From the NCBI GenBank assembly GCA_018268455.1, contig JAFDWM010000290.1, positions 207,493 to 271,492 on the forward strand: 64,000 bases of DNA. Reading direction: 5' to 3'. Below the pieces are notes generated by a model that had not been told where the DNA came from, made no database searches, and saw only the letters and a program-made list of their open reading frames with translations. Position 1 is the first letter of the stretch; each line of letters begins with the position of its first letter. Of the stretch, positions 7,796 through 62,940 are shown one piece after another. The translations under genes were made by a program, and so were the position numbers. This stretch comes from Actinomycetota bacterium. Its GTDB lineage: Bacteria; Actinomycetota; Actinomycetes; Actinomycetales; Microbacteriaceae.

Positions 7796-9595
7796 ATGAC
7801 GGCTCGATTGCGCCCTCGACTGCTGGCGTTCCTCGGCGCCATCGCGCTGGTGCTCGTCCCGCTGCTCGCCGCGCCCGCGGCCTTCGCCGACGCCGACGAC
7901 TTCTCCTATGCGTCCTGGGACAGCGACTATCAGCTCAGCCGGGATGACCAGGGGCGGGCCGAACTGCGGGTCACCGAGACGCTGGTGGCCGATTTCCCCG
8001 ATTTCGATCAGAATCACGGCATCATCCGCGGACTGCCGACCTGGTACGAGGGCGCCCCGCTGCATCTGCGCATCGTGTCGATCACCGATGGCTCCGGCAA
8101 GAACCTGCCCTATGACGATGATGAGACGGAGAACGGCGAACGTCAGATCAGGATCGGCGATCCCGACACCTTCCAGCACGGGCTCACCACCTACCGGATC
8201 ACGTACACGATGCGCGATGTGGTGCATCGTCCGTCCGATCGTGCGATCGACGAGTGGTACTGGAACCTGCTGCCGCTGAACTCGTCGCAGCCGATCGCCA
8301 GGTTCTCCGCGATCCTGACGTTCGATCCCGCGATCAGCGCGGCGATGATCGGAGCACCGTCCTGCTATGACGGGGCCGCCGGCTCCACGCAGACGTGCAC
8401 GCTCGCACCCGACGCGTCGTCGAAGCAGAGCTTCACCGTGTCCAAGGACGACATCCCGGCCGGATCCGGCGTCACCGTCGCCTTCCCGATGACGCTCGGC
8501 ACCTTCGCCCAGGCGCCCGCGCGGATTCCGGATCCGGCCACCGACGTCGCACCGTACCCCTTCTCCGCGCTCGGCGCGCTGCTCGGGATCGGTGGCCCCG
8601 TGATCGGCATCGCCGTGCTGCGCCGGCAGGGGCGCCGCAGCGGTCGCGGCATCGTCGTGGCCCAGTACGACGTGCCCGCGAACCTGCCACCCGTCCTCGC
8701 CGCCGAGCTCGAGGGGCGGCGATCCGCCGCGACCTCCGCCGAGATCGTGCATCTCGCCGTGCACAAGGCGATCCGCATCTCCGATGGCGAGAGCAAGCCG
8801 GTGCTGGAGTTGCAGGATCCGTCCTTCGCGGCGGATCCGCTCGATGCGCAGGCGCTGACCGCTCTCTTCCCCGGCTCTCAGGCAGGCGCGACGCTGCATC
8901 TCGACCAGCCGAACGACGCGCTCGTCGCACGGTTGAAGGCGCTCGACGGATCCGCGGGCGTCGCCGCGCTGCAGCGCGGTCTGCGGGAGCGACGCCGCCC
9001 CGTCCTGGCCGTCGTGATGAGCGCCATCGGCGTCGCCACCGGGCTCGCCGCGGTCGCTCTCGCGGTGCCAGGCATGGCCGTCGGGCGTCCCGCGGCGATC
9101 GCGTCCTTCGTCGTCGCGATCGTGCTGACCGTAGTCGCGGTCGCGTGCCTGATCGTGGCGCTGCCGCGGCGTGCGGTGCTCACCCCGCAGGGTGCCGAGG
9201 CGCGCGAGTATCTGCTCGGCGTGCGCGAATACATCCGGCTCGCGGAGGCGGACCGGATCCGCATGCTGCAGTCGTATCGCGGCGCCGAGCGGCGCGCCGA
9301 CGGCAACGCGGATGTGGTGGTGCTGTACGAGCGGCTCCTCCCGTACGCGATGCTGTTCGGGATGGAGCGGGAGTGGGGCAAGGTGCTCGCCGTGCAGTAC
9401 GAACGCGACGACGTGGTGCCCGGCTGGTACGCCGGCTACACCGGCGCGAGCTTCGCCCATTCGCTCGACGGCATGAACAGCTCGCTCAGCCCCACGCCGA
9501 CGCCGAGCACGTCCTCGAGCTCGAGCTCGAGCGGCTCGTTCGGCGGCGGCTTCTCCGGCGGCGGCGGGGGCGGCGGGTCGTCCGGCGGCTGGTGA
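7796..9595 (+). CDS. DUF2207 domain membrane protein
   Basis: A 599-residue protein with a cleavable signal peptide (residues 1-31, cleavage after AFA), an extracellular DUF2207 domain to about residue 230, a membrane helix near 256-276, a cytoplasmic stretch, then a pair of helices near 400-455. The tail is low complexity: a Pro-Thr run, about ten serines, then a glycine-rich end. Glycine/serine tails of this kind are common in DUF2207 proteins. Function is unknown; a surface or envelope role is an inference. It is likely expressed from a leaderless promoter directly behind thrC. Confidence 0.85.
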   Translation: MTARLRPRLLAFLGAIALVLVPLLAAPAAFADADDFSYASWDSDYQLSRDDQGRAELRVTETLVADFPDFDQNHGIIRGLPTWYEGAPLHLRIVSITDGSGKNLPYDDDETENGERQIRIGDPDTFQHGLTTYRITYTMRDVVHRPSDRAIDEWYWNLLPLNSSQPIARFSAILTFDPAISAAMIGAPSCYDGAAGSTQTCTLAPDASSKQSFTVSKDDIPAGSGVTVAFPMTLGTFAQAPARIPDPATDVAPYPFSALGALLGIGGPVIGIAVLRRQGRRSGRGIVVAQYDVPANLPPVLAAELEGRRSAATSAEIVHLAVHKAIRISDGESKPVLELQDPSFAADPLDAQALTALFPGSQAGATLHLDQPNDALVARLKALDGSAGVAALQRGLRERRRPVLAVVMSAIGVATGLAAVALAVPGMAVGRPAAIASFVVAIVLTVVAVACLIVALPRRAVLTPQGAEAREYLLGVREYIRLAEADRIRMLQSYRGAERRADGNADVVVLYERLLPYAMLFGMEREWGKVLAVQYERDDVVPGWYAGYTGASFAHSLDGMNSSLSPTPTPSTSSSSSSSGSFGGGFSGGGGGGGSSGGW

Positions 9596-9611
9596 GTGCG
9601 CACCGACCGGA

Positions 9612-10553
9612 TCAGGGGATCAGCGCGAGCTTTCCGCCGGGGTGTCCTTCGGCAAGGAATCGCGTCGCCTCGACGGCATCCGCGAGCGGATAGGTGCGCG
9701 CGAGCGGCACCGTGAGCATCCCCTCGTCGGCGAGCCGCGTGAGCTCCCCGCGGATCCCGTCGCGGAAGGCGGCGCTGGCAGGCTGAGAGCCCGCGATACT
9801 GCGGAAGCCGTGCCGGGCGGCACGGGCCGGTGCCGCGATCGTGACGATCCGGGAGGTGTCAGCGACGACCGCCAGCGACACGTCAACGGCCTCGTCGGTG
9901 CCGACGGCATCGAGCGCGGCGTGCACGGGGAATCCGAGCGCGCGAACCCGGCCTTCGAGTCCGTCGCCGTAGGGGACGGGGATCCCGCCGAAGCGGCGCA
10001 CCCGTTCGGCGCCGGCTTCGCTCGTCGTGCCGATCACGCGCACTCCGCGCAGCGCCGCGAGCTGCAGCACCGTGACGCCGACGGCGCCGGATGCTCCGTG
10101 CAGCAGCACGGTCTCGCCCCGAGCGGCATGCACGCGCTCGAGCATCTCCGCGGCCGTGGTGCCGGCGAGCAGCAGGTTCGCCGCCTCGGCGTGCGACAGC
10201 GGCGAGGGCTTGCGGAACGCCTTGTCGGCGGGGATCGTGAGCGTGGTCGCGTACCCGCCCTGCACGCGGAACGCGATGACCTCGTCACCCACGCGCGCCT
10301 CACCGGATCCGATGCGGGTGTCCGGCCCGATCGCAACGATCTCCCCGGAGATCTCGTAGCCGATCGGCACGGGCAGGACGACACCGGTGCGCGAAGCCGC
10401 GACGTGCTTGCGATCGGCCGGGTTCATGCCCGCGGCGTGCACCCGGACCGTCACCTCGCCCTGCCGCGGATCCGGCGCCGTCGCGTCGACGAGACGCCAG
10501 TTCTCCGCCGGCCCCCACGTCGGGGCGATCCACTGCCGTGCCGCGAAGGGCAT
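9612..10553 (-). CDS. NAD(P)H-dependent zinc-less alcohol dehydrogenase / quinone oxidoreductase
   Basis: A 313-residue member of the medium-chain dehydrogenase/reductase superfamily: an N-terminal GroES-like domain (VHAAGMNPADRKH, GYEISGEIVAIG) and a Rossmann domain with LLHGASGAVGVTVLQLA. The structural zinc cysteines are absent, as in the quinone oxidoreductase branch. Substrate unknown. It starts one base after the era stop and may be the last gene of the hrcA-era cluster, though its job has no obvious link to it. Confidence 0.85.
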   Translation of the reverse strand: MPFAARQWIAPTWGPAENWRLVDATAPDPRQGEVTVRVHAAGMNPADRKHVAASRTGVVLPVPIGYEISGEIVAIGPDTRIGSGEARVGDEVIAFRVQGGYATTLTIPADKAFRKPSPLSHAEAANLLLAGTTAAEMLERVHAARGETVLLHGASGAVGVTVLQLAALRGVRVIGTTSEAGAERVRRFGGIPVPYGDGLEGRVRALGFPVHAALDAVGTDEAVDVSLAVVADTSRIVTIAAPARAARHGFRSIAGSQPASAAFRDGIRGELTRLADEGMLTVPLARTYPLADAVEATRFLAEGHPGGKLALIP

Positions 10554-50451: not shown

Positions 50452-51525
50452 TCAGCGGATCGCGGCCCCCGAACGGTCGTGCGCGGCCAGCCGGCGCTGC
50501 ACACCGGCCGCGGCCGTGCGCCCCGCTCGATTGGCGCCGATCGTGCTCGCCGAGGGGCCGTAGCCGACCAGCTGGATCCGCGGATCCTTCACGGCGGTGG
50601 TGCCGCGGCCTCCGCGGTCGAGCTGGATCCCGCCGAGGTCGCTGCGCAGGTGCAGCGGCGCGAGATGCCCGATCGCGGGCCGGAACCCCGTGGCCCACAG
50701 GATCGCGTCCACACGTTCGAACGAGCCGTCCGCCCAGCGCACGCCGTCGGGCTCGATCCGCTGGAACATCGGCAGCCGGCGGTCGTAGACGCCGAGTCGC
50801 GCCGCCGCCTGCTCCTGCGGCCGCAGCATCAGGCCGGTGACGCTGACCACGCTCTGCGGCGCGAGCCCCCGTGCGACGCGCTGCTCGACGAGCGCCACGG
50901 CGGCCGCGCCCGCCTCCGGAGTGAAGTCGTCGGTGCGCCAGACCGGCGGGCGACGGGTGGCCCACAGCACGTCCGTGATCGGCGCGAGCGCACCGAGGAA
51001 CTGCACCGCCGAGGCCCCTCCTCCGACCACGAGCACGCGCATGCCACGGAAGTGCTCCGGCCCCGGATAGTCGACGGTGTGGAGCTGCTCCCCGAGGAAG
51101 GTCTCCATGCCCGGGTAGTGCGGCAGGAACGGCTGCGTCCAGGTGCCTGTGGCGTTGACGAGGGTGCGCGAGTACCAGGTGCGCTCCCCCGCGTGCACCG
51201 CGAGGATGCCGTCTTCATCGGTCACCCGCCGCACGTGCACGGGTCGGATCACCGGCAGATCATGCGCACGCTCGTATGCGGCGAAGTACGAGGGCACGGC
51301 GTGGTTGGCGCGCTCCGTGGTGCGCGGCGGCGGCACCGACCCGGGCAGCTCCGCCACGCCGTGCACGTCCTGCATCGTGAGCGCGTCCCAGCGGTGCTGC
51401 CACGCGCCTCCCGGCGCGTCGTCGGCGTCGAGCGTGACGTGCGGCACTCCGAGCCGGCGCAGATGGTACGAACTCGACAGTCCTGCCTGCCCTGCGCCGA
51501 TGACGATGCTGTCGAGGATCTCCAC
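50452..51525 (-). CDS. flavin-dependent NAD(P)-binding oxidoreductase
   Basis: A 357-residue flavoprotein with two Rossmann motifs, VIGAGQAGLSSSYHL (FAD) and VLVVGGGASAVQFL (NAD(P)), and the ATGFRP segment (LWATGFRPAIGHL), as in Baeyer-Villiger/flavin monooxygenase and YpdA-like proteins. Substrate unknown. Start set at GTG 51525 because it gives a natural N terminus, but no clear ribosome site is visible. It occupies the place after jetC where jetD is normally found. Confidence 0.82.
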   Translation of the reverse strand: MEILDSIVIGAGQAGLSSSYHLRRLGVPHVTLDADDAPGGAWQHRWDALTMQDVHGVAELPGSVPPPRTTERANHAVPSYFAAYERAHDLPVIRPVHVRRVTDEDGILAVHAGERTWYSRTLVNATGTWTQPFLPHYPGMETFLGEQLHTVDYPGPEHFRGMRVLVVGGGASAVQFLGALAPITDVLWATRRPPVWRTDDFTPEAGAAAVALVEQRVARGLAPQSVVSVTGLMLRPQEQAAARLGVYDRRLPMFQRIEPDGVRWADGSFERVDAILWATGFRPAIGHLAPLHLRSDLGGIQLDRGGRGTTAVKDPRIQLVGYGPSASTIGANRAGRTAAAGVQRRLAAHDRSGAAIR

Positions 51526-51601
51526 GGCGGATGCAACGCCGCCGAGGCCGCCGCTGTTCCCCGATGCGGCGTGCAGAGGCTCCGATCCGCACGCGACCGG
51601 C

Positions 51602-54600
51602 TCAGCGCGACTCGGGCATCGCGACCTTGAGCTTGGCCCAGGACCTGCCCCGGGTGTCCTTGAGGATGTCGTACTCGACGTCGACATGCGGTTCGATCGC
51701 GCTGTACTTGTCGTTCGGCGCGCCGATCACCAGCTGGAATCCGAGACCCCGCCACGCGCCGATCGCGCGCTTGGTGAAGTGCGCATCCGCCTTGATGAGG
51801 GCCTCGTCCATGAACACCGGGGCGTAGCGCGGACGCTCCGCACCCGCGTCACCGAGCTGGTAGCGCAGGGCCGCGCCGACGATGAAGGCGATGAGCTCCT
51901 GCGACTCTCCGCCGGACTTCTCACCGATGTGGTCGTACAGCGCGACATGCTGCTTCGTGTCGGCGGTGACCCGCTCCGCGCTCACCCGCACGTGGGTGCG
52001 CACATCGATGAGGTCGGCGAAGTCCGGCGCAGAGCGGCGCAGGTGCCCGATGAGACGCGACATGCGGCGGTAGGCGTGCTCGCGCTCCTGATCGGTCGAC
52101 GCCGCCTCGATCAGCCCGCGCACTTCGCGCAGGTCGCGGCGGAAGCGCTTGCGCGCCTCGGACTGGCTCTCCCTGGTCGTGATCTGCAGGCGATGCGCGT
52201 CATCGTAGAACGGCAGGTCCTGCATGATGCGGTTGATCGGCTCGATGCGCTCGCGGATCTCCCGCAGCGCCCGGCCGAGCATCGAGTCGAGATTGGTGAG
52301 GTCGTTGCCGGAGAGGTGCAGGAGGCTGTCCCGCCACTCGCTCTCCAGCTGGTGCAGCCCGCTCGTCTCGAGCGCGACCAGGATGCTCTCGAAGTCGTCG
52401 ACGTAGAGATCCGGATCCGCGAGCAGGTTCGGATTCTCCCAGCGCTCCAGGAATCCGCTCATCAGCCGGCGCAGGTTCTCGCGCTGCTCGTGGTGCGCGT
52501 CGCGCGCGGCGGCGCGGTCCTCGGTGAGCCGCTGCCCCGCCGTCTGCAGGGCGCCGTCGAAGCGTTCGAGCAGCACCGACGGCGCGGCCTTGGCCGACGC
52601 GGGCGTCGCGAAGCGGGCATCGAGGTATTCGCCGTGTGCGGCGTGCACGACGCGATCGGATCCGTCCGCGGCGTCGATGAGCGCCTGTCCCGCGTCGACA
52701 TCGTCGGTGATCTCGCCCCAGCGCTGCTCGATCTGCCGGCGCTCCGCGTCCGCGGCGCCGATCTCCTCCCGCAGCCGTGCGGCGATGCGCTTGGCCTTGT
52801 CGATCTGCGTTCCGATCCCGGAGATGTCCGGATTCTTCTCGGCGACCTCGGCGGCGACACCCTGCCAGCGCTCCTGCTCTGCGAGGAGCCCCTCGACGTC
52901 GATCTGCTCCCAGATCACGTCGACGATCCGGCCGAAGGCCGCGCGCTCCGCGTCGAAGCGGTCCAGAGCCGTCTCGGCGGCCGACGCCTCCTGCTCCGCC
53001 TGCGCGAGCCTGGGACGCAGCTCGTCGACCGCGGCCTCGAGATCACGCAGCCGGGTGCGGTTCGAGAAGCCGAGCACGTTGGTGCGGCCCTGCCCGCCAT
53101 GCGCGCCCTGATCGCCGCGGGACATCTGTCCCGTGATCGTGAGCGCCTGATCCTCGCCGGCGAGCGCTGCCGCGCTGTTCACGCAGGCGAACCCGAACCG
53201 CTCGGTGAGGCGCACCTGCAGCCAGCCCGTGAACGGGGTGTCGGCGTAGTCGAGCCGGCCGGGAAGCCGGTTCTCGGCTCCCCCGCCGCTGGCGCGGAGT
53301 CCCGTGTGCACGCCCTGATAGGTGAGACGGCGCGGCGTGCGCACACTGTCGATGGCGGCGCGGAAACGATCGAGATCGGCGACGTCGAGGAGCACGGTGG
53401 TGGCGAACCCGCCGAGCGCGAGGTTGAACGCCTCCCGCCACGGCTCGTATTCGGTGCGCACCTCGATGAGCTCGCCGACGAAGGGCAGCTGGTGCGGTTC
53501 AAGCCCCGCCGCCTCGGCGAGCAGAGCCCGTGAGCGGTACAGGTCGGCGGGGATGTTTCCGGTGAACGCCGACGCCTCGGCGTGTGCCCGCTCCCGCTGG
53601 CTCAATTCGGTGAGGAGGGCGTCGCGACGCCGGCGTGCGTCGGCCCAGGCATCGCGGGCACGGTTCTTCGCGTCGGCGTCGGCGAGTACCGCGCGACCCC
53701 GGCTCACCAGTCGGTCGAACGAGGCGCGGCCGGCCGCATCGGCGTCGAGGATCCGGAGGTCTTCCGCGAGCCGCTCGCGCTGCGCCCTGGCGTCCTCCAG
53801 GCGTCGCTCGACGCCGCGCAGTTCCCGCTGCGCGGTCTCGAGCCGGTCGCCGCCGCGCTCGCGCAGCAGATCACGCAGGCCCTCGTGCTCGATCTCGGCT
53901 GCCTCCGCCCGCACCCGCTTCTCGCGCACGAGTGCGTCCAGCGCGCGCTTGCGGTCGCGCAGCTCATCCTCGACGTCACGGAGCAGGTCCATCCGTCGTC
54001 CGGCGCGCCAGAGGGACGCGACCGAGGACGGATCCTCGAACACCCCGACCGCGTCGATGAGAGTCATCCGTTCGGCCGCCGCGTCGATGCGGCCGCGCAG
54101 GTCGCGGATCGGCTCGAGCGCCGCGACCTGCTGGCGCGCGACGAGCATGCGCTGCTTGGTGCTCTCCAGCTCGTCGAAGTGCACGACCACCGCGTCCGCG
54201 GTGCGCATGGTCTCCGGCTCCTCGAGCACGAGCCGCTTGTACAGGTCGTCGACGGTGGTGATCTGCTGGCCCGCCTGGATCCTCGCCAGCAGGCTCATCG
54301 CATTCGCCCCGGATCCGGCGGCCCCGATGCCCAGCACGGAGTGCAGGCGGGCGGAGAACTCCCGGTCCGTTCCCACGGGCTCGAGGCCGACGGCGCGGAC
54401 CGAGGCATCGGTGAGGCGCTGAGCCGCGGCCTGCTCGAGCAGCGCCAGGTCGAATGCGGCGTTCGCGGTGGCGCGCACGCGCACGGTGTCCTCGAGCACG
54501 CGCGCACCGGCCGGGATGTACCAGGCGCGCACCGCGGTGAAACGCGATCCGTCGTGGTCGAGCCATGTCATCGAGATCGCGGTCCAGGTGTCCTCGCCGT

Positions 54601-54958
54601 CGCCGCGGAGCACCTGCACCTTTGTGCCCTCCTCGGTGCGCGTCTCGTCGAGCTTGCCGCGCCCGTAGGAGAGCACGTTGCGTTGCTCGTCACCGCGCGG
54701 GCGACCGGTGACGCCGCCGTTCGAGGCGCCGTTGAACGGCGTCGTGTGCGGCATCATGAGCGCGATGTAAGCGTCCATGAGCGTCGACTTCCCAGACCCG
54801 GATCCGCCGCACAGCAGCGTCGCCGCTGGCGAGAACCGCACCCGGTGCGGGCCGCCGTCGTAGCCGCCCCAGTTCACGAGCTGCAGATCCTCGGCGACCC
54901 ACTGCTGACCGCGGGAGGCTTCCGGGATGAGCCCGAAGAGCGTGTCGATCATCGTCAT
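51602..54958 (-). CDS. jetC: JetC, SMC-like ATPase (Wadjet/Mks condensin type)
   Basis: A 1118-residue SMC-family ATPase. Walker [10 protein letters not shown] (51-59), long coiled-coil arms (about 290-480 and 680-960) with a hinge-like middle part, signature SGGESQE (from 1015) and Walker B VFMDEA (1049-1053), all intact. This is the DNA-loop-extruding motor of JetABC(D)/MksBEF(G) systems that recognise circular plasmids. The ATG overlaps the jetB stop by 4 bases. The next gene is not jetD. Confidence 0.9.
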
Positions 54959-55668
54959 GACAGGGCGTCCTCCAGAGCGTCCTCGGAGGCCGCATCGGGC
55001 GCGGTCGCCGCGGCGCCGGCAGCCCGCTCGGCCGCGGTCTCTCGCAGCCAGTCGCGCAGTTCGGTGAGCTTCTCCGCGCTCAGCACCACCTCCACGAGCG
55101 GGCCGATCCGATACCGGCCGGTCGTCTCCTCGCTGATGATGCCGTCGTTCGCGAGCTTGCGCAGCGCGTCGCGCACCGCCTTCTGCCGCCGTGAGATGTC
55201 GCCATCCGCCTCGGTGAAATAGCTCAGTACGGTGGCTTCGACGTCTTCGACGTCGATCCGCGGCGCCGCCTCGCCGGCGACGCTCTCGCGCTCGTAGACG
55301 GTGCGCAGATGCACCAGCACCAGGGTCTCGGAGCGCGTGTACGGCGTGTCGCGCAGCAGGATCGGGATGTCGAGCTCTTCCACGCGTATCTGCTGCTTGT
55401 AGGCGAGACCGTGCCCGTGGTCGACGACGAGGCGGATGTACAGGTCGTTGAGCCGCGACTCGATCACGGTCTGGTTGTCCAGGAGCGTGCGCCATTCCGT
55501 GCGGTTGCGCTCGGCGAGCAGGAAGCGGCGGTGCAGGATCAGGGCGAGCGTGCGCCGCACCTCCGGGTCGAGCACCCCGCGGTCGCCGGGGAACAGTTCG
55601 GGGAGGTCGTCCTCCATCGCGACGGGCTCAATGAATCCCGTGGCGTCGATGACATCCGGCGTGGTCAT
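54955..55668 (-). CDS. jetB: JetB, DUF4194 subunit
   Basis: A 237-residue winged-helix KITE-like subunit (MksE equivalent), with [24 protein letters not shown] and the DUF4194 core. It bridges the kleisin JetA and the SMC-like JetC. Overlaps jetA and jetC by 4 bases each (ATGA), so the three are made in fixed ratio. Confidence 0.87.
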
Positions 55669-57128
55669 GCCTGCTCCTTCCTGGCGTGTGCGGTCACCGC
55701 TCCGAACGCGAACCGTCGCGCCGTCCCGTCCGGCCGGCGGGCTTCCACGATCGACACCCCGTCCGCGTCGGTGAGGCCGTTGCGGTGCGCGATCTCGAGC
55801 AGACCAAGGAGGTCGACCGGCCGACGGGTGCCGTCGGCGGCGCCTTCGAAGGCCTCACCCAGATCGAACGTGTCGCCGAGACCGGCGACGTACGCCTCGA
55901 GCTCGGCATAGTGCGGCCCGCCCCACGCGCGCGTGTCGGCGTCGACGAACTCGACGTCGCGGCCCTGCGTGGTCAGCGCCGCCGGAGCGGCGGGCGGGCG
56001 GATGTCCCCCAGCGACTGGCGCAGGTGGCCGATGCTCGCGACCGGCAGCCGGCGCAGCGGATCCACCGGCGTCTCCGGTGTGCGGGTCTGGGTCCACGCC
56101 TGCATCCCGGCGATGACGTCGCGCAGGAGCTCATCGACCTGCCGATCGCGTGCCGGATCGTGCGTGCGCACCTGTGCGGCGATGACGTGCGAGGCGCGCC
56201 GCTGCGCGGTGAGCACCTCCTGCACGCCGAGCTCCATGCGGCGCCCGATCATGTCCAGCTCGGCGCGCTGCGTGTCGTCCAGCAGCCGTGCGAAGGGTCG
56301 CGACAGCAGCTCGTGCAGCTGTTCGGCGAACGCATCGATGCGCTCCGGATCCCCGATGAGACGGAGGGCGCCGGCGAAGGCCTGGCCCTCGCGCGTGGAC
56401 TGCATGACCTGCTGGCCACGCACCAGGTACTCCCGGAGCACCTCACCGGTGGGGCGTTCGTCACGGCGCAGGTCGCGGATCACGTCACGCTGCATGGCCT
56501 TGATCGACTCCGCCACCCGGGTGAAATCGGCGGGCAGGCTGCGTGAGAGGTGCAGCACGTTCTCCGCCTCCTCGAGCAGCTCGTCGTCGGGCATCGGATC
56601 CGCCGACCCTGACTCGAGCTCTGCGATGCGGGCGTCGAGAGCCGCCCGCTCGGCACGCAGGCGGGCGAGTCTTCGCGCAGGATCCGCATCCGAATCCTCG
56701 GCGAGACGCTCGACGGCGTCGAGCAGCGTGCGCACCCGCGAGTGCGAGACGCGGGAACCGCCGCCGGTGAGGTCGGCGATCTCCAGCGCCCGCACGGCAT
56801 GCGCGGTCAGCCGGTACACCTCGGTGTCGCCGTCGATCTGCTGTCCGAGCCAGCCGACCTTCACCCAGTAGCGGCACACCTCGCGGCCGCTGGTCGCGGG
56901 CAGCCGACGATCGTCCTCCTCGTCGCCGGCCGCGCGCAGCCGCCCGAGCATCGCGCCGACCTCGACGTGCGCACCCGCGACCGTGACCGCGGGCCGGTCG
57001 GCGGAGAACATCACGCTCAGCGCGGCGACCACGAAGGGCGCATATCTGCCGTGCAGCAGGTCGAGCGTGGGCGTCTTGAATGCGGCGAGCGCGCGCAGGT
57101 AGGCACCCTCTGCTCTGCTCCCGGTCAC
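55665..57128 (-). CDS. jetA: JetA, DUF3375 kleisin-like subunit
   Basis: A 487-residue DUF3375 protein (MksF equivalent), the kleisin that closes the SMC ring. It begins with [26 protein letters not shown] and is helical with a coiled-coil stretch near 150-175. GTG start with GAGAGG upstream. First gene of the operon; a -10 TAGACT at 57192-57197 leaves a leader of about 55 bases. Confidence 0.87.
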
Positions 57129-57694: not shown

Positions 57695-58232
57695 TCACGC
57701 ACCCCCGTGCGAATCGGGGCGGTCCGCGCGCCCGGGCTGGACGAAGCCGCTCTCGTAGCAGCGCACGATCACCTGAACGCGGTCCCGCACCCCGAGTTTC
57801 TGCAGGACCGCCGTGACGTGGGCTTTGACAGTGGTCTCGGAAATATACATACGGGCTGCGATCTCCGCATTCGACAATCCCTCCGCGATATAGCGGGCGG
57901 TGTCGAGTTCTCGTTCAGACAGCGCGGCGAAATCGGCGGGGAGCACCTGGCCGGGAGGCAGCCGCCTGGTGAAGTCGGCGAGTAGCCGTCGCGTGATCAC
58001 CGGGTCGAGGATCGCTTCGCCGGCGGCGACAGTCCGCACCGCTTCCGCCAACTGGCCGGGGCTCACGGTCTTGAGCAGGAAACCGCTCGCGCCGGCGCGC
58101 ACGGCGTCGTAGACATGGCTGTCACCGTCGAATGTGGTGAGCATCAGCACCCGACTGCGGATCGCGGTGTCGGCCAGCAGATTGCGGGTGGCCGCGATGC
58201 CGTCGACAACGGGCATCTGGACGTGGGCACCG
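57695..58232 (-). pseudogene. response regulator that has lost its 5' third
   Basis: The frame from 58216 gives 173 residues that match a NarL/FixJ regulator from MPVVDGIAATR to a complete LuxR helix-turn-helix (LSERELDTARYIAEGLSNAEI). The first 50 or so residues of the receiver, including the acidic pair, are missing, and the phospho-acceptor position reads AHVQMP instead of the usual MDVQMP, so the aspartate is lost too. The break lies near 58217-58232. No kinase gene is next to it. It might still make a constitutive DNA-binding protein, but a decayed gene is more likely. Confidence 0.75.
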
Positions 58233-60175: not shown

Positions 60176-60826
60176 TCACCCGGAATGGCCAGGTCGGACC
60201 AGTCCTGTCTCGTAGGCGAGTGCCACGGCCTGCGCGCGGTCGCGCAGCCCGAGCTTGGTGAGGATCCGGGTGACGTGCGTCTTCACGGTCGCTTCGGAGA
60301 GGAAGAGCCGGTCGGCCAGCTGCTTGTTGCTCAGGCCGTGACCCACCAACCCGAGCACCTCGCGCTCGCGCGTCGTCAGGGGCCGCAGCGCCTCGGCGGC
60401 TTCCGATGAGGGGCGGGTGATGAACTCCTCCAGCAATCGGCGGGTGATCGCCGGAGCGAGGAGCGCATCGCCCCGTGCGGCGGCACGCACGGCACCGATC
60501 AACGACTCCGGCGGCGCATCCTTGAGCAGGAATCCGGCCGCGCCTGCCCTGATGGCGGCGTACACATACTCGTCGAGGTCGAACGTCGTGAGCATGATGA
60601 TGGCGCTGCGCCGGTCGGCCAGACGTCGCGTGGCTTCGATGCCGTCGAGTCCAGGCATGCGCACGTCCATCAGCACGACGTCCGGATCGGCGGCCACCGT
60701 GACCTGGACCGCCTCCTCGCCGCTGCCGGCCTCCCCGACGACACGCAGGTCGTCCTGCGTGGTGAGGATGGCGATCAGTCCGGCCCGCACGAGGCCCTGA
60801 TCGTCGGCAACCACGACCGTGATCAT
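60176..60826 (-). CDS. NarL/FixJ-type response regulator, partner of the adjacent kinase
   Basis: A 216-residue regulator: Asp8-Asp9, phospho-acceptor Asp54 (LMDVRMPG), LLKDA lysine, and a LuxR helix-turn-helix (LTTREREVLGLVGHGLSNKQL). Its ATG overlaps the kinase stop (ATGA), so they are a co-translated pair. Targets unknown; the divergent membrane protein at 62197 is a candidate by position. Confidence 0.94.
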   Translation of the reverse strand: MITVVVADDQGLVRAGLIAILTTQDDLRVVGEAGSGEEAVQVTVAADPDVVLMDVRMPGLDGIEATRRLADRRSAIIMLTTFDLDEYVYAAIRAGAAGFLLKDAPPESLIGAVRAAARGDALLAPAITRRLLEEFITRPSSEAAEALRPLTTREREVLGLVGHGLSNKQLADRLFLSEATVKTHVTRILTKLGLRDRAQAVALAYETGLVRPGHSG

Positions 60827-62013
60827 CGGGCCTGCCCCTCTTCGCGGTCGGATTCCAGTGGCAGCACGGCCCGCACGACGAAGCCGCCGTCAGGTAGCCG
60901 GCCGGCGTCCAGGGTCCCCGCGAACATCGACACCCGCTCGCGCATCCCAGTCAGCCCGTGACCGCCGGCGGGCAGCGGGGTTCTCCGACCGGGCGCATTG
61001 CGCACTTCCACGGTCAGCGCCGAGTCCTCGATGGCCATCGCGACGGTCGCCCGGACCGGACCGGCGTGCCTGAGCACGTTGGTCAGAGACTCCTGCACGA
61101 CGCGATAGGCCGTCAGTTGGATGCTGGCCGGGATCTCCTGGGACACATCGTTCGACACGTCGACGGACAGACCTGCCTTCTGCATCTCGGCGACCAGCCC
61201 TGGCACCGCGGCCAGGTCCGGCAAGGGGGCCAAGGGTGCCGCCACGCCGTGCTGGTCGGTCTCACGCAGCACCCCGAGGGTGCGGCGCAGCTCCGTCAGG
61301 GCGCGCCGGCCGGTGTCCTCCGCGGCGCGGAGCTGCTCGGGAACCGGCACTCCCGAGCTCTCCAGCCGCATCCGTGCGGCCCCTGCCTGCAACGTCAGCA
61401 GACTCACCGAGTGAGACACGACGTCGTGCATCTCGGCGGCGATGCGTCGACGCTCGGCGGCGACGGCCGCGTCCTCCCGCTCGGCCGCGCCGGCCGACAA
61501 CTCGGCCAGCGCGGCGGCGAGGCTGGCACTCTGCACGCTGATGCGGCGTATCAGGCGGCCCAGTACGGACGAGGCCCCGAACAGCGCCAGCGGGAAGGCG
61601 ATCTCGTTGACGGAACGGATCTCGGGCACACGAATCGCGAATGTCATCATGCTCGCCGTGCACACCAGCCACGACCAGCGCCCCCACCATCCCGGAACCA
61701 CGCGGGCCACCGTGTAGTTGACCAGCATCAGCGGCAGGAAGTCGCCCCAGAACAGCACGGTGTGCCCGACGACGAGGTTGGGCAGGACCATCCACGCGCA
61801 CATCAAGCCCAATGTCAGTCGCGGCCAGGTCGATCGGAACGCGAGCAACGCGGTGAACAGGAACTGCAGGACGATATTGAGCGTCAACGGCCCGAGCGGA
61901 TACCCGTCATCGGTCTTCACCTGGAGTTCCACCTGGGCCAGCACGGTGAAGAGCAGCGCGACCGCGCAGTCGAGGACAACGGGTGGGATCCGCTGCCACA
62001 GCCGACTGATCAT
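60823..62013 (-). CDS. sensor histidine kinase, HisKA_3 type
   Basis: A 396-residue kinase. Five or so membrane helices (about 10-150) with no large extracellular part, the phospho-accepting His196 in AAEMHDVVSHSVSLL, and a HATPase domain with GGHGLTGMRERV. This DesK/NarX-like type often senses membrane or envelope state. TACACT box 6 bases before the ATG at 62013. Confidence 0.93.
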   Translation of the reverse strand: MISRLWQRIPPVVLDCAVALLFTVLAQVELQVKTDDGYPLGPLTLNIVLQFLFTALLAFRSTWPRLTLGLMCAWMVLPNLVVGHTVLFWGDFLPLMLVNYTVARVVPGWWGRWSWLVCTASMMTFAIRVPEIRSVNEIAFPLALFGASSVLGRLIRRISVQSASLAAALAELSAGAAEREDAAVAAERRRIAAEMHDVVSHSVSLLTLQAGAARMRLESSGVPVPEQLRAAEDTGRRALTELRRTLGVLRETDQHGVAAPLAPLPDLAAVPGLVAEMQKAGLSVDVSNDVSQEIPASIQLTAYRVVQESLTNVLRHAGPVRATVAMAIEDSALTVEVRNAPGRRTPLPAGGHGLTGMRERVSMFAGTLDAGRLPDGGFVVRAVLPLESDREEGQAR

Positions 62014-62019
62014 CGGGTC

Positions 62020-62025
62020 AGTGTA
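62020..62025 (-). promoter_or_regulatory. -10 box of the two-component operon
   Basis: TACACT on the minus strand, 6 bases before the kinase ATG; leaderless pattern. Confidence 0.5.
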
Positions 62026-62196
62026 GAACTGCGGCGTCGCGCACGAGTCCGTTCCACGAGGTACAGCGATACCTCCCCAGATGTACGCCGACAGCGACAG
62101 GATCAGCCGGAGATGACCGAGATCGCCTCGACCGGCGGACGCGCGCGTTCGGGGGCGCGTTTCAGACTGTCCGGATCCCGATCCGAAGGAGATCCC

Positions 62197-62940
62197 ATGG
62201 CCATCGACGAGACGACCGAATCGACCGTCACCCACAGGCTTGTCGGCAACCGGCTCATGCTGACCGGCGCCCTGCTCTATCTGACCGAGTTCGCGGGGAT
62301 CGCGCTGTCGCAGGCGCAGCACCTGCCCGAGCAGCCCGCGGTCGACGGGCTCACACTCATGAGGGACTACGCCGGCCACGCCGACGGGCTCGGGTTCGTG
62401 ATGGGATGGTTCGGAATCGTGCTTCTGGGCAGAGTGCTCGTCCTCGTGGCACTGCGTGTCGCACTGGCCAGATCCGGCTATCGTTCGGCGTGGATGGACC
62501 TTGCGGTGGTCGCGATGGCGGTCGGCGTGACGCTGGAGATGGCGAGTGCGGCGCTGGCGACTGCTGCCGGGCAGCTCGCCGATGCCGGTCAGAACAGCGC
62601 AGCAGTCGCCATCGATCGCGGCGCTGCGTACCTCGCCGACGCGATCTACGCCCCGGCCGGATTGGCGGTCATCCTTGCGTCCTGCTGCATGTACGCGTCG
62701 CGGCTGTTCCCGCGAGTCCTCGCCATCCTCGGCATGCTGGGCGGGGCCGCCACCCTGGCGGCCGGCCTGTTGTCCGGCCCATCCTTCTTCGACGTCCAAG
62801 ACGCACTGTCGATGCCGGTCTTCGTGGTGTGGGCATGGATGCTGTGGGCAGGCGTACTGATGTGGCTGCGCACCCCGAAGCACTCCCATCGGCTAGCCCG
62901 CAGCGAGGCGCCGAACCACCCAGCTACCGAGGGGCTGTAG
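62197..62940 (+). CDS. multi-pass membrane protein of unknown function
   Basis: A 247-residue protein with about six hydrophobic helices and short loops (ALLYLTEFAGIAL, GFVMGWFGIVLLGRVLVLVAL, and others), reminiscent of DUF4386-like proteins. GAAGGAG precedes the ATG. It is divergent from the kinase operon with 183 bases between, so it may be the operon's target. Confidence 0.75.
   Translation: MAIDETTESTVTHRLVGNRLMLTGALLYLTEFAGIALSQAQHLPEQPAVDGLTLMRDYAGHADGLGFVMGWFGIVLLGRVLVLVALRVALARSGYRSAWMDLAVVAMAVGVTLEMASAALATAAGQLADAGQNSAAVAIDRGAAYLADAIYAPAGLAVILASCCMYASRLFPRVLAILGMLGGAATLAAGLLSGPSFFDVQDALSMPVFVVWAWMLWAGVLMWLRTPKHSHRLARSEAPNHPATEGL

Follow-up and report, generated by a model that had tools for sequence, protein, structure and literature searches.

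Wadjet systems of type I (JetABCD, also MksBEFG or EptABCD) combine an SMC motor with a nuclease: JetABC extrudes the plasmid, and JetD is activated once extrusion is complete (PMC12647877, PMC10586767). JetABC without JetD is already known in gammaproteobacteria. In Pseudomonas aeruginosa it goes under the name MksBEF (PMC10586767) and has a role on the chromosome beside SMC (PMC7485682), and in Stenotrophomonas maltophilia jetABC without jetD is conserved and was termed probably inactive (PMC11680222). Wadjet was reported in 42% of actinobacterial genomes, in an account that, in the part covered here, does not mention jetD-less loci (PMC10482375). Here we describe a jetABC locus without jetD in 64,000 nucleotides of contig JAFDWM010000290.1 from a member of the Microbacteriaceae (the whole stretch is called the window below). 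Its genes are best read, with about an even chance of being right, as a type I Wadjet core that has lost jetD and would act as a nuclease-free, loop-extruding motor, an MksBEF-like second condensin beside the ordinary SMC complex. The locus and its immediate neighbour consist of the following features.

55665-57128, minus strand: jetA, kleisin (DUF3375), 487 amino acids with a GTG start; PADLOC JetA1 675 bits, PF11855 357.5 bits (cut-off 28.6)
55570-55635, minus strand: conserved N-terminal segment of JetB, core pattern [F or W]xGDxGxL, retained at most loci whether jetD is there or not
54955-55668, minus strand: jetB, KITE or MukE-like protein (DUF4194), 237 amino acids, 4-base overlap with jetA; PADLOC JetB1 353 bits, PF13835 123.5 bits (cut-off 32.7)
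51602-54958, minus strand: jetC, SMC ATPase, 1,118 amino acids from MTMIDTLFG, 4-base overlap with jetB; PADLOC JetC1 1,633 bits
54785-54808, minus strand: Walker A of JetC, GGSGSGKS, complete
51896-51919, minus strand: ABC signature of JetC, KSGGESQE, complete
51791-51814, minus strand: Walker B of JetC, FMDEALIK, complete
51526-51601, minus strand: site where jetD starts in jetD-bearing relatives, here 76 bases without jetD
50452-51525, minus strand: ArsO-like flavoprotein, a neighbour and not part of the system; ArsO 297 bits, below the cut-off of 425

The three genes stand in the order jetA-jetB-jetC with open frames, and the jetC product carries the P-loop and SbcC/RAD50-like Walker B domains of Pfam. 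A preliminary description of the window had called the three genes intact, with 4-base overlaps and complete ATPase motifs, and frames, PADLOC, Pfam and motifs all agree with it. Its 76-base gap between the jetC stop and the flavoprotein gene is also correct if the flavoprotein begins at the GTG at 51525; the flavoprotein frame stays open upstream as far as an ATG at 51687.

The locus resembles Wadjet type I in the JetA1, JetB1 and JetC1 matches, the gene order and the ATPase motifs, and differs from it in that the JetD TOPRIM nuclease (PF11795 with PF09983) was found neither at the locus nor anywhere in the genome. As an SMC protein, a kleisin and a KITE protein without a nuclease subunit, it has the composition that defines MksBEF, and like P. 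aeruginosa MksBEF it lies beside an ordinary SMC (PMC7485682); however, its proteins match the Wadjet type I models, and JetB reaches only 21.6 bits against the MksE model PF21980 (cut-off 27), which places it outside the Mks families. The jetD-less type I locus of S. maltophilia is similar in its conserved jetABC, but that case concerns a gammaproteobacterium with one conserved island beside recBCD (PMC11680222), whereas here there are many separate jetD-less clades in which selection was measured. MksBEFG of Corynebacterium glutamicum is an actinobacterial relative of the same general design that, unlike the window locus, has the MksG nuclease and acts on plasmids (PMC10123090, PMC7083940).

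As the preliminary description had stated, jetD does not follow jetC: no jetD start lies past the jetC stop, and a profile search gave no JetD match within the surrounding 20 kb. The description had also left open that jetD might be encoded elsewhere. A profile search of the whole genome (3.60 Mb, 310 contigs, 99.97% complete) with PF09983 (JetD_C) and PF11795 (DUF3322) gave no match, while both domains were matched in C. glutamicum, the positive control; a jetD acting in trans was thus rejected as far as known JetD domains are concerned. An assembly deletion at 51526-51601 was rejected as well: the window lies in a contig of at least 271 kb, and such a gap is unlikely because close relatives, namely all six rows that form its closest clade with it in the tree, lack jetD at the same place. 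The ordinary SMC is complete and encoded on the same contig (TIGR02168 825 bits, cut-off 567), and this protein found a match in all 15 other genomes searched with it.

The absence of jetD at the window locus is not a local accident. Among 149 Microbacterium genomes, the window's included, the JetC model matches 70 and JetD_C matches 19. JetC of the window's subfamily (at least 1,529 bits) is present in 53 genomes, and only in one of these (G101) was jetD found directly after it; in two others (G044, G104) the contig ends within 1 kb of jetC. A further genome (G042) has a frame-split jetC of the subfamily together with jetD. At the level of the family, JetC matches, some of them weak, were found in 82 of 299 genomes, and JetD_C was present somewhere in 30 of 64 chosen JetC carriers, once as a fragment. 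Neighbourhoods were compared for 121 loci (the window, L041-L100 and L161-L220), with jetD in 23 and none in 98; since the choice was made by JetC score, the window's subfamily is almost fully represented and the lower-scoring loci, most of which carry jetD, only in part, and the counts do not measure prevalence. Where jetD-bearing loci were compared at the jetC stop, jetD starts at that stop; at the remaining loci nothing jetD-like starts there, except a partial jetD in L100. This last locus (genome G052) holds partial jetC and jetD only, and its genome has further JetC fragments, accompanied by a JetD_C fragment, at another place.

A second set, the best 80 of 335 relatives, consisted of named loci from Microbacterium, Leucobacter, Gulosibacter, Corynebacterium, Nocardioides, Cellulomonas, Actinotalea, Actinomadura, Nocardia, Actinoplanes and others. 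Judged at the locus only, 18 were flagged with jetD, including a broken one (L240) and one from the same record as G042 (L310). With a self-built JetD profile run on 80 genomes, long matches were confined to G101, G026, G064 and two places in G042, and C-terminal fragments to G276 and G102; it nominally 'matched' 74 of the 80, the window's genome included, nearly always by short artefacts over model positions 1 to 50-107 that stem from an out-of-frame jetC 3' end at the start of the profile's rows, and was used neither for nor against the window's genome. On mobile elements only distant matches were seen, two among 72,556 plasmid records (E 1e-50) and one among 50,697 phage records (E 1e-10).

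The history of the locus was followed on a FastTree phylogeny of 178 concatenated JetA-JetB-JetC rows from actinobacterial loci, 139 without jetD and 39 with it, a proportion that reflects a set weighted towards the window's subfamily and not prevalence. Three of the 121 loci (L042, L092, L100) and 20 of the 80 named ones (duplicate genomes or cut-off contigs) were left out, L240 with its broken jetD was scored as lacking the gene, and L183 entered by jetC alone, its contig ending before jetA and jetB. The tree requires 20 changes of state, gains or losses, of which 19 cannot be avoided without contradicting branches of at least 95% local support and form the supported minimum of gains plus losses; if jetD was never regained, the uncollapsed tree implies 36 losses. 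FastTree flagged long branches meeting in places, which makes the exact counts soft, and an earlier tree of 120 rows required 8 changes.

Where both proteins are present, the identities of JetD and JetC rise and fall together (r 0.967, n=39, none of 2,000 permutations as high), deep branches contributing to this value. Because the two identities run parallel, joint descent with repeated loss is a better fit than repeated acquisition from elsewhere. This suggests an ancestral jetD that has been lost several times over. Remnants of jetD beside jetABC point the same way. In Microbacterium helvum (L240) jetABC is intact and the broken jetD (8857-9800) keeps its first 246 residues, has lost about 247-326 and goes on in a different frame (residues numbered as in the L074 protein), and in L291 and L283 a jetD start of about 25-60 residues only adjoins single-frame jetA, jetB and jetC. 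We interpret these three loci as intermediates of jetD loss, of which L240 would be a snapshot. The loss of jetD, one of four options listed in the preliminary description, is thereby supported.

By alignment column, the lysine and serine of Walker A, the serine and glycine of the signature and the aspartate and glutamate of Walker B are invariant in 139/139 loci without jetD and in 39/39 with it; three loci of each group have split frames (3 of 139 and 3 of 39, respectively). The ratio of non-synonymous to synonymous substitution rates (dN/dS) in 22 chosen pairs that both lack jetD was 0.021-0.265 for JetA, 0.012-0.156 for JetB and 0.026-0.245 for JetC; the corresponding values in two jetD-bearing pairs were 0.128, 0.180 and 0.168-0.226, and the ordinary SMC of nine genome pairs gave 0.043-0.209. 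Because these ranges are alike, we conclude that the jetABC motor is under about as much constraint as a housekeeping SMC. Some pairs may have diverged in part before jetD was lost, which is least likely in the large clades without an intact jetD (17, 15, 14, 11 and 10 rows).

The chromosomal setting was compared in several groups. In genus g51, jetC is present in 7/7 genomes; no jetD was found genome-wide in five of them by JetD_C search, nor within 16 kb in the other two. Both flanks are shared in the compared pairs of g51, g64 and g18 and in the Microbacterium pair L055/L059; in the g36 pair, sharing extends well past jetABC downstream only. No clear signal of horizontal transfer emerged when identities of jetABC and of the SMC region were compared in 11 pairs (best single alignments of unequal length): jetABC was 0-5 points higher in eight, slightly lower in one and 7-8 points higher in two (G101/G068, G111/G129). 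No recurring replacement gene lies within about 5 kb on either side. The most widespread neighbour family was seen in seven of the 36 clades without jetD, besides two jetD-bearing loci, and a single conserved substitute for jetD was rejected.

From these observations we propose that JetC ATPases, held by the JetA kleisin and the JetB KITE protein, would load on DNA and that JetABC would extrude loops. Without JetD, extrusion can go on whereas cutting cannot, so that nothing would cut at the end of the process, and the motor probably does a job of its own. Its most likely job would be that of a second, MksBEF-like condensin beside the ordinary SMC, because extrusion can persist without JetD and P. 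aeruginosa MksBEF provides a precedent; the chromosome would then be the predicted substrate. This was the Mks-type option of the preliminary description, and it stands as the best of the four at the even level given above, with loop extrusion and the chromosomal substrate as its conjectural parts. It is supported by the intact genes, the invariant catalytic residues, the lack of any JetD domain in the genome, the repeated absence of jetD with signs of loss, purifying selection, the presence of jetC throughout g51 and an ordinary SMC in every genome searched for it, as in P. aeruginosa (PMC7485682).

Several points weigh against a second condensin. The window's subfamily is accessory in Microbacterium (53/149 genomes), unlike a housekeeping condensin, and the tree rests on a set enriched in that subfamily. 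The closest pair that differs in jetD (L072/L099) shares the jetABC module only: jetABC is 93.4% and the SMC region 93.7% identical, the flanks differ, and one locus has jetD, with a frame-split jetC, and the other has none. In C. glutamicum, MksBEFG, which has its nuclease, acts on non-chromosomal DNA only (PMC7083940). The N-terminus of JetB adds a further difficulty. An IFDR motif there contacts JetD in the described system (PMC10586767), and the pattern [F or W]xGDxGxL is present in 131/139 loci without jetD and 34/39 with it, absent from the g36/g56 clade, L295 and five jetD-bearing loci (in one, L183, jetB is cut by the contig end). If this pattern corresponds to IFDR and is the JetD dock, its retention without jetD is unexplained by a condensin role, and jetD-less complexes would have kept the dock, perhaps for another protein.

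A divergent clade of seven loci (L201 and L203-L208, in g56 and g36) lacks both jetD and the JetB pattern throughout, with GPTGRGKS as Walker A and KSGGEGQE as signature. It possibly represents the furthest step towards a separate condensin.

The main rival to the second-condensin role, appreciably less probable than it and still a serious candidate, is a motor that still guards against plasmids or other DNA circles but does not cut them itself. It would extrude, compact or silence them, or pass them to a general host nuclease acting in trans, and jetD would have been given up for its cost. The accessory distribution in Microbacterium would agree with such a defence, as would the retained JetB pattern, which fits neither of the two readings well, and Smc5/6 offers a parallel in silencing circular extrachromosomal DNA (PMC10586767). 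On the other side, Bacillus subtilis needs all four Jet proteins to suppress plasmid transformation (PMC10586767), no neighbour family reaches more than 7 of the 36 jetD-less clades, and the shared chromosomal places in g51, g64 and g18 look less like those of defence genes.

It is unlikely that the locus is a disarmed, non-functional Wadjet remnant on its way to loss. The partial jetD genes beside intact jetABC in L240, L291 and L283, the decaying L100 with its partial jetC and jetD, and the judgement of the authors on the Stenotrophomonas system (PMC11680222) would all suit such decay, but catalytic residues kept in every jetD-less locus, so few split frames, dN/dS within the range of SMC and the persistence of large clades without intact jetD speak against it, and the selection data of the deep clades already do so. 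Equally improbable is a complex completed by an unrecognised effector that is encoded elsewhere and not homologous to JetD. Such a protein could be the ligand of the conserved JetB segment, for which none is known in jetD-less genomes, but the 5 kb on either side hold no shared candidate, the genome-wide searches having covered known JetD profiles only.

The last option of the preliminary description, that the flavoprotein is a new subunit or effector, is suggested by its position on the same strand 76 bases from jetC and by a match starting 61 bases past jetC in L237, but was rejected as extremely improbable, for it is found near jetC in only 8 of 201 loci (seven genomes, L236 and L088 belonging to one) within the flanks at hand, all of them close relatives of the window with JetC at least 81% identical to its own, and it resembles ArsO-type monooxygenases. 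Its match starts as far as 3.6 kb past the jetC stop (L262), other genes intervene in L087, and L084, from the window's own clade, has no flavoprotein within 6 kb of jetC. Of the four options the loss of jetD and the condensin are favoured, jetD elsewhere and the flavoprotein partner are not. The intervening genes of L087 (10710-13240), named by eye, look like an AraC-type regulator and a sigma-factor-like gene, which are absent from the window.

For the Actinomycetota as a whole, we lean slightly towards the view that an SMC complex of plasmid defence has lost its nuclease again and again, up to 36 times by the tree, and each time left a selected nuclease-free motor, whether as a convergent second condensin or for non-cutting control of foreign circular DNA. 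Our search of the open-access literature, a scope outside which most subscription papers lie, yielded no earlier account of jetD being lost recurrently in Actinomycetota or of the motor left behind being under selection. The loci bear on how SMC complexes switch between chromosome building and plasmid destruction; where Wadjet comes from and how it relates to other SMC complexes are described as unresolved, and the descent of MksBEF and MukBEF from Wadjet as a tempting speculation (PMC10586767). The proposed step, loss of JetD with JetABC kept, appears here many times, and close relatives that carry jetD can be compared with intermediates that have half lost it, which makes the transition testable in pairs of related soil bacteria. 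If our view is right, these loci form a natural replicate series of transitions from defence to housekeeping, or from cutting to silencing, in SMC complexes. For annotation, a rule demanding all four genes would presumably overlook most loci of the subfamily, and a rule based on jetABC alone would call them active defence.

Other frames of the window given to Pfam are those of core and metabolic genes and encode leucyl-tRNA synthetase, a ComEC-type protein, DNA polymerase III delta, LepA, glycosidases and sulfatases. No further defence gene was seen among them (PADLOC covered five proteins only), and the window is therefore not taken for a defence island. Upstream of jetA, a short LuxR-type response regulator frame (57695-58216) has a receiver domain that matches profile positions 52-111 only, and 60176-62889 encodes a histidine kinase and a regulator with a full receiver match.

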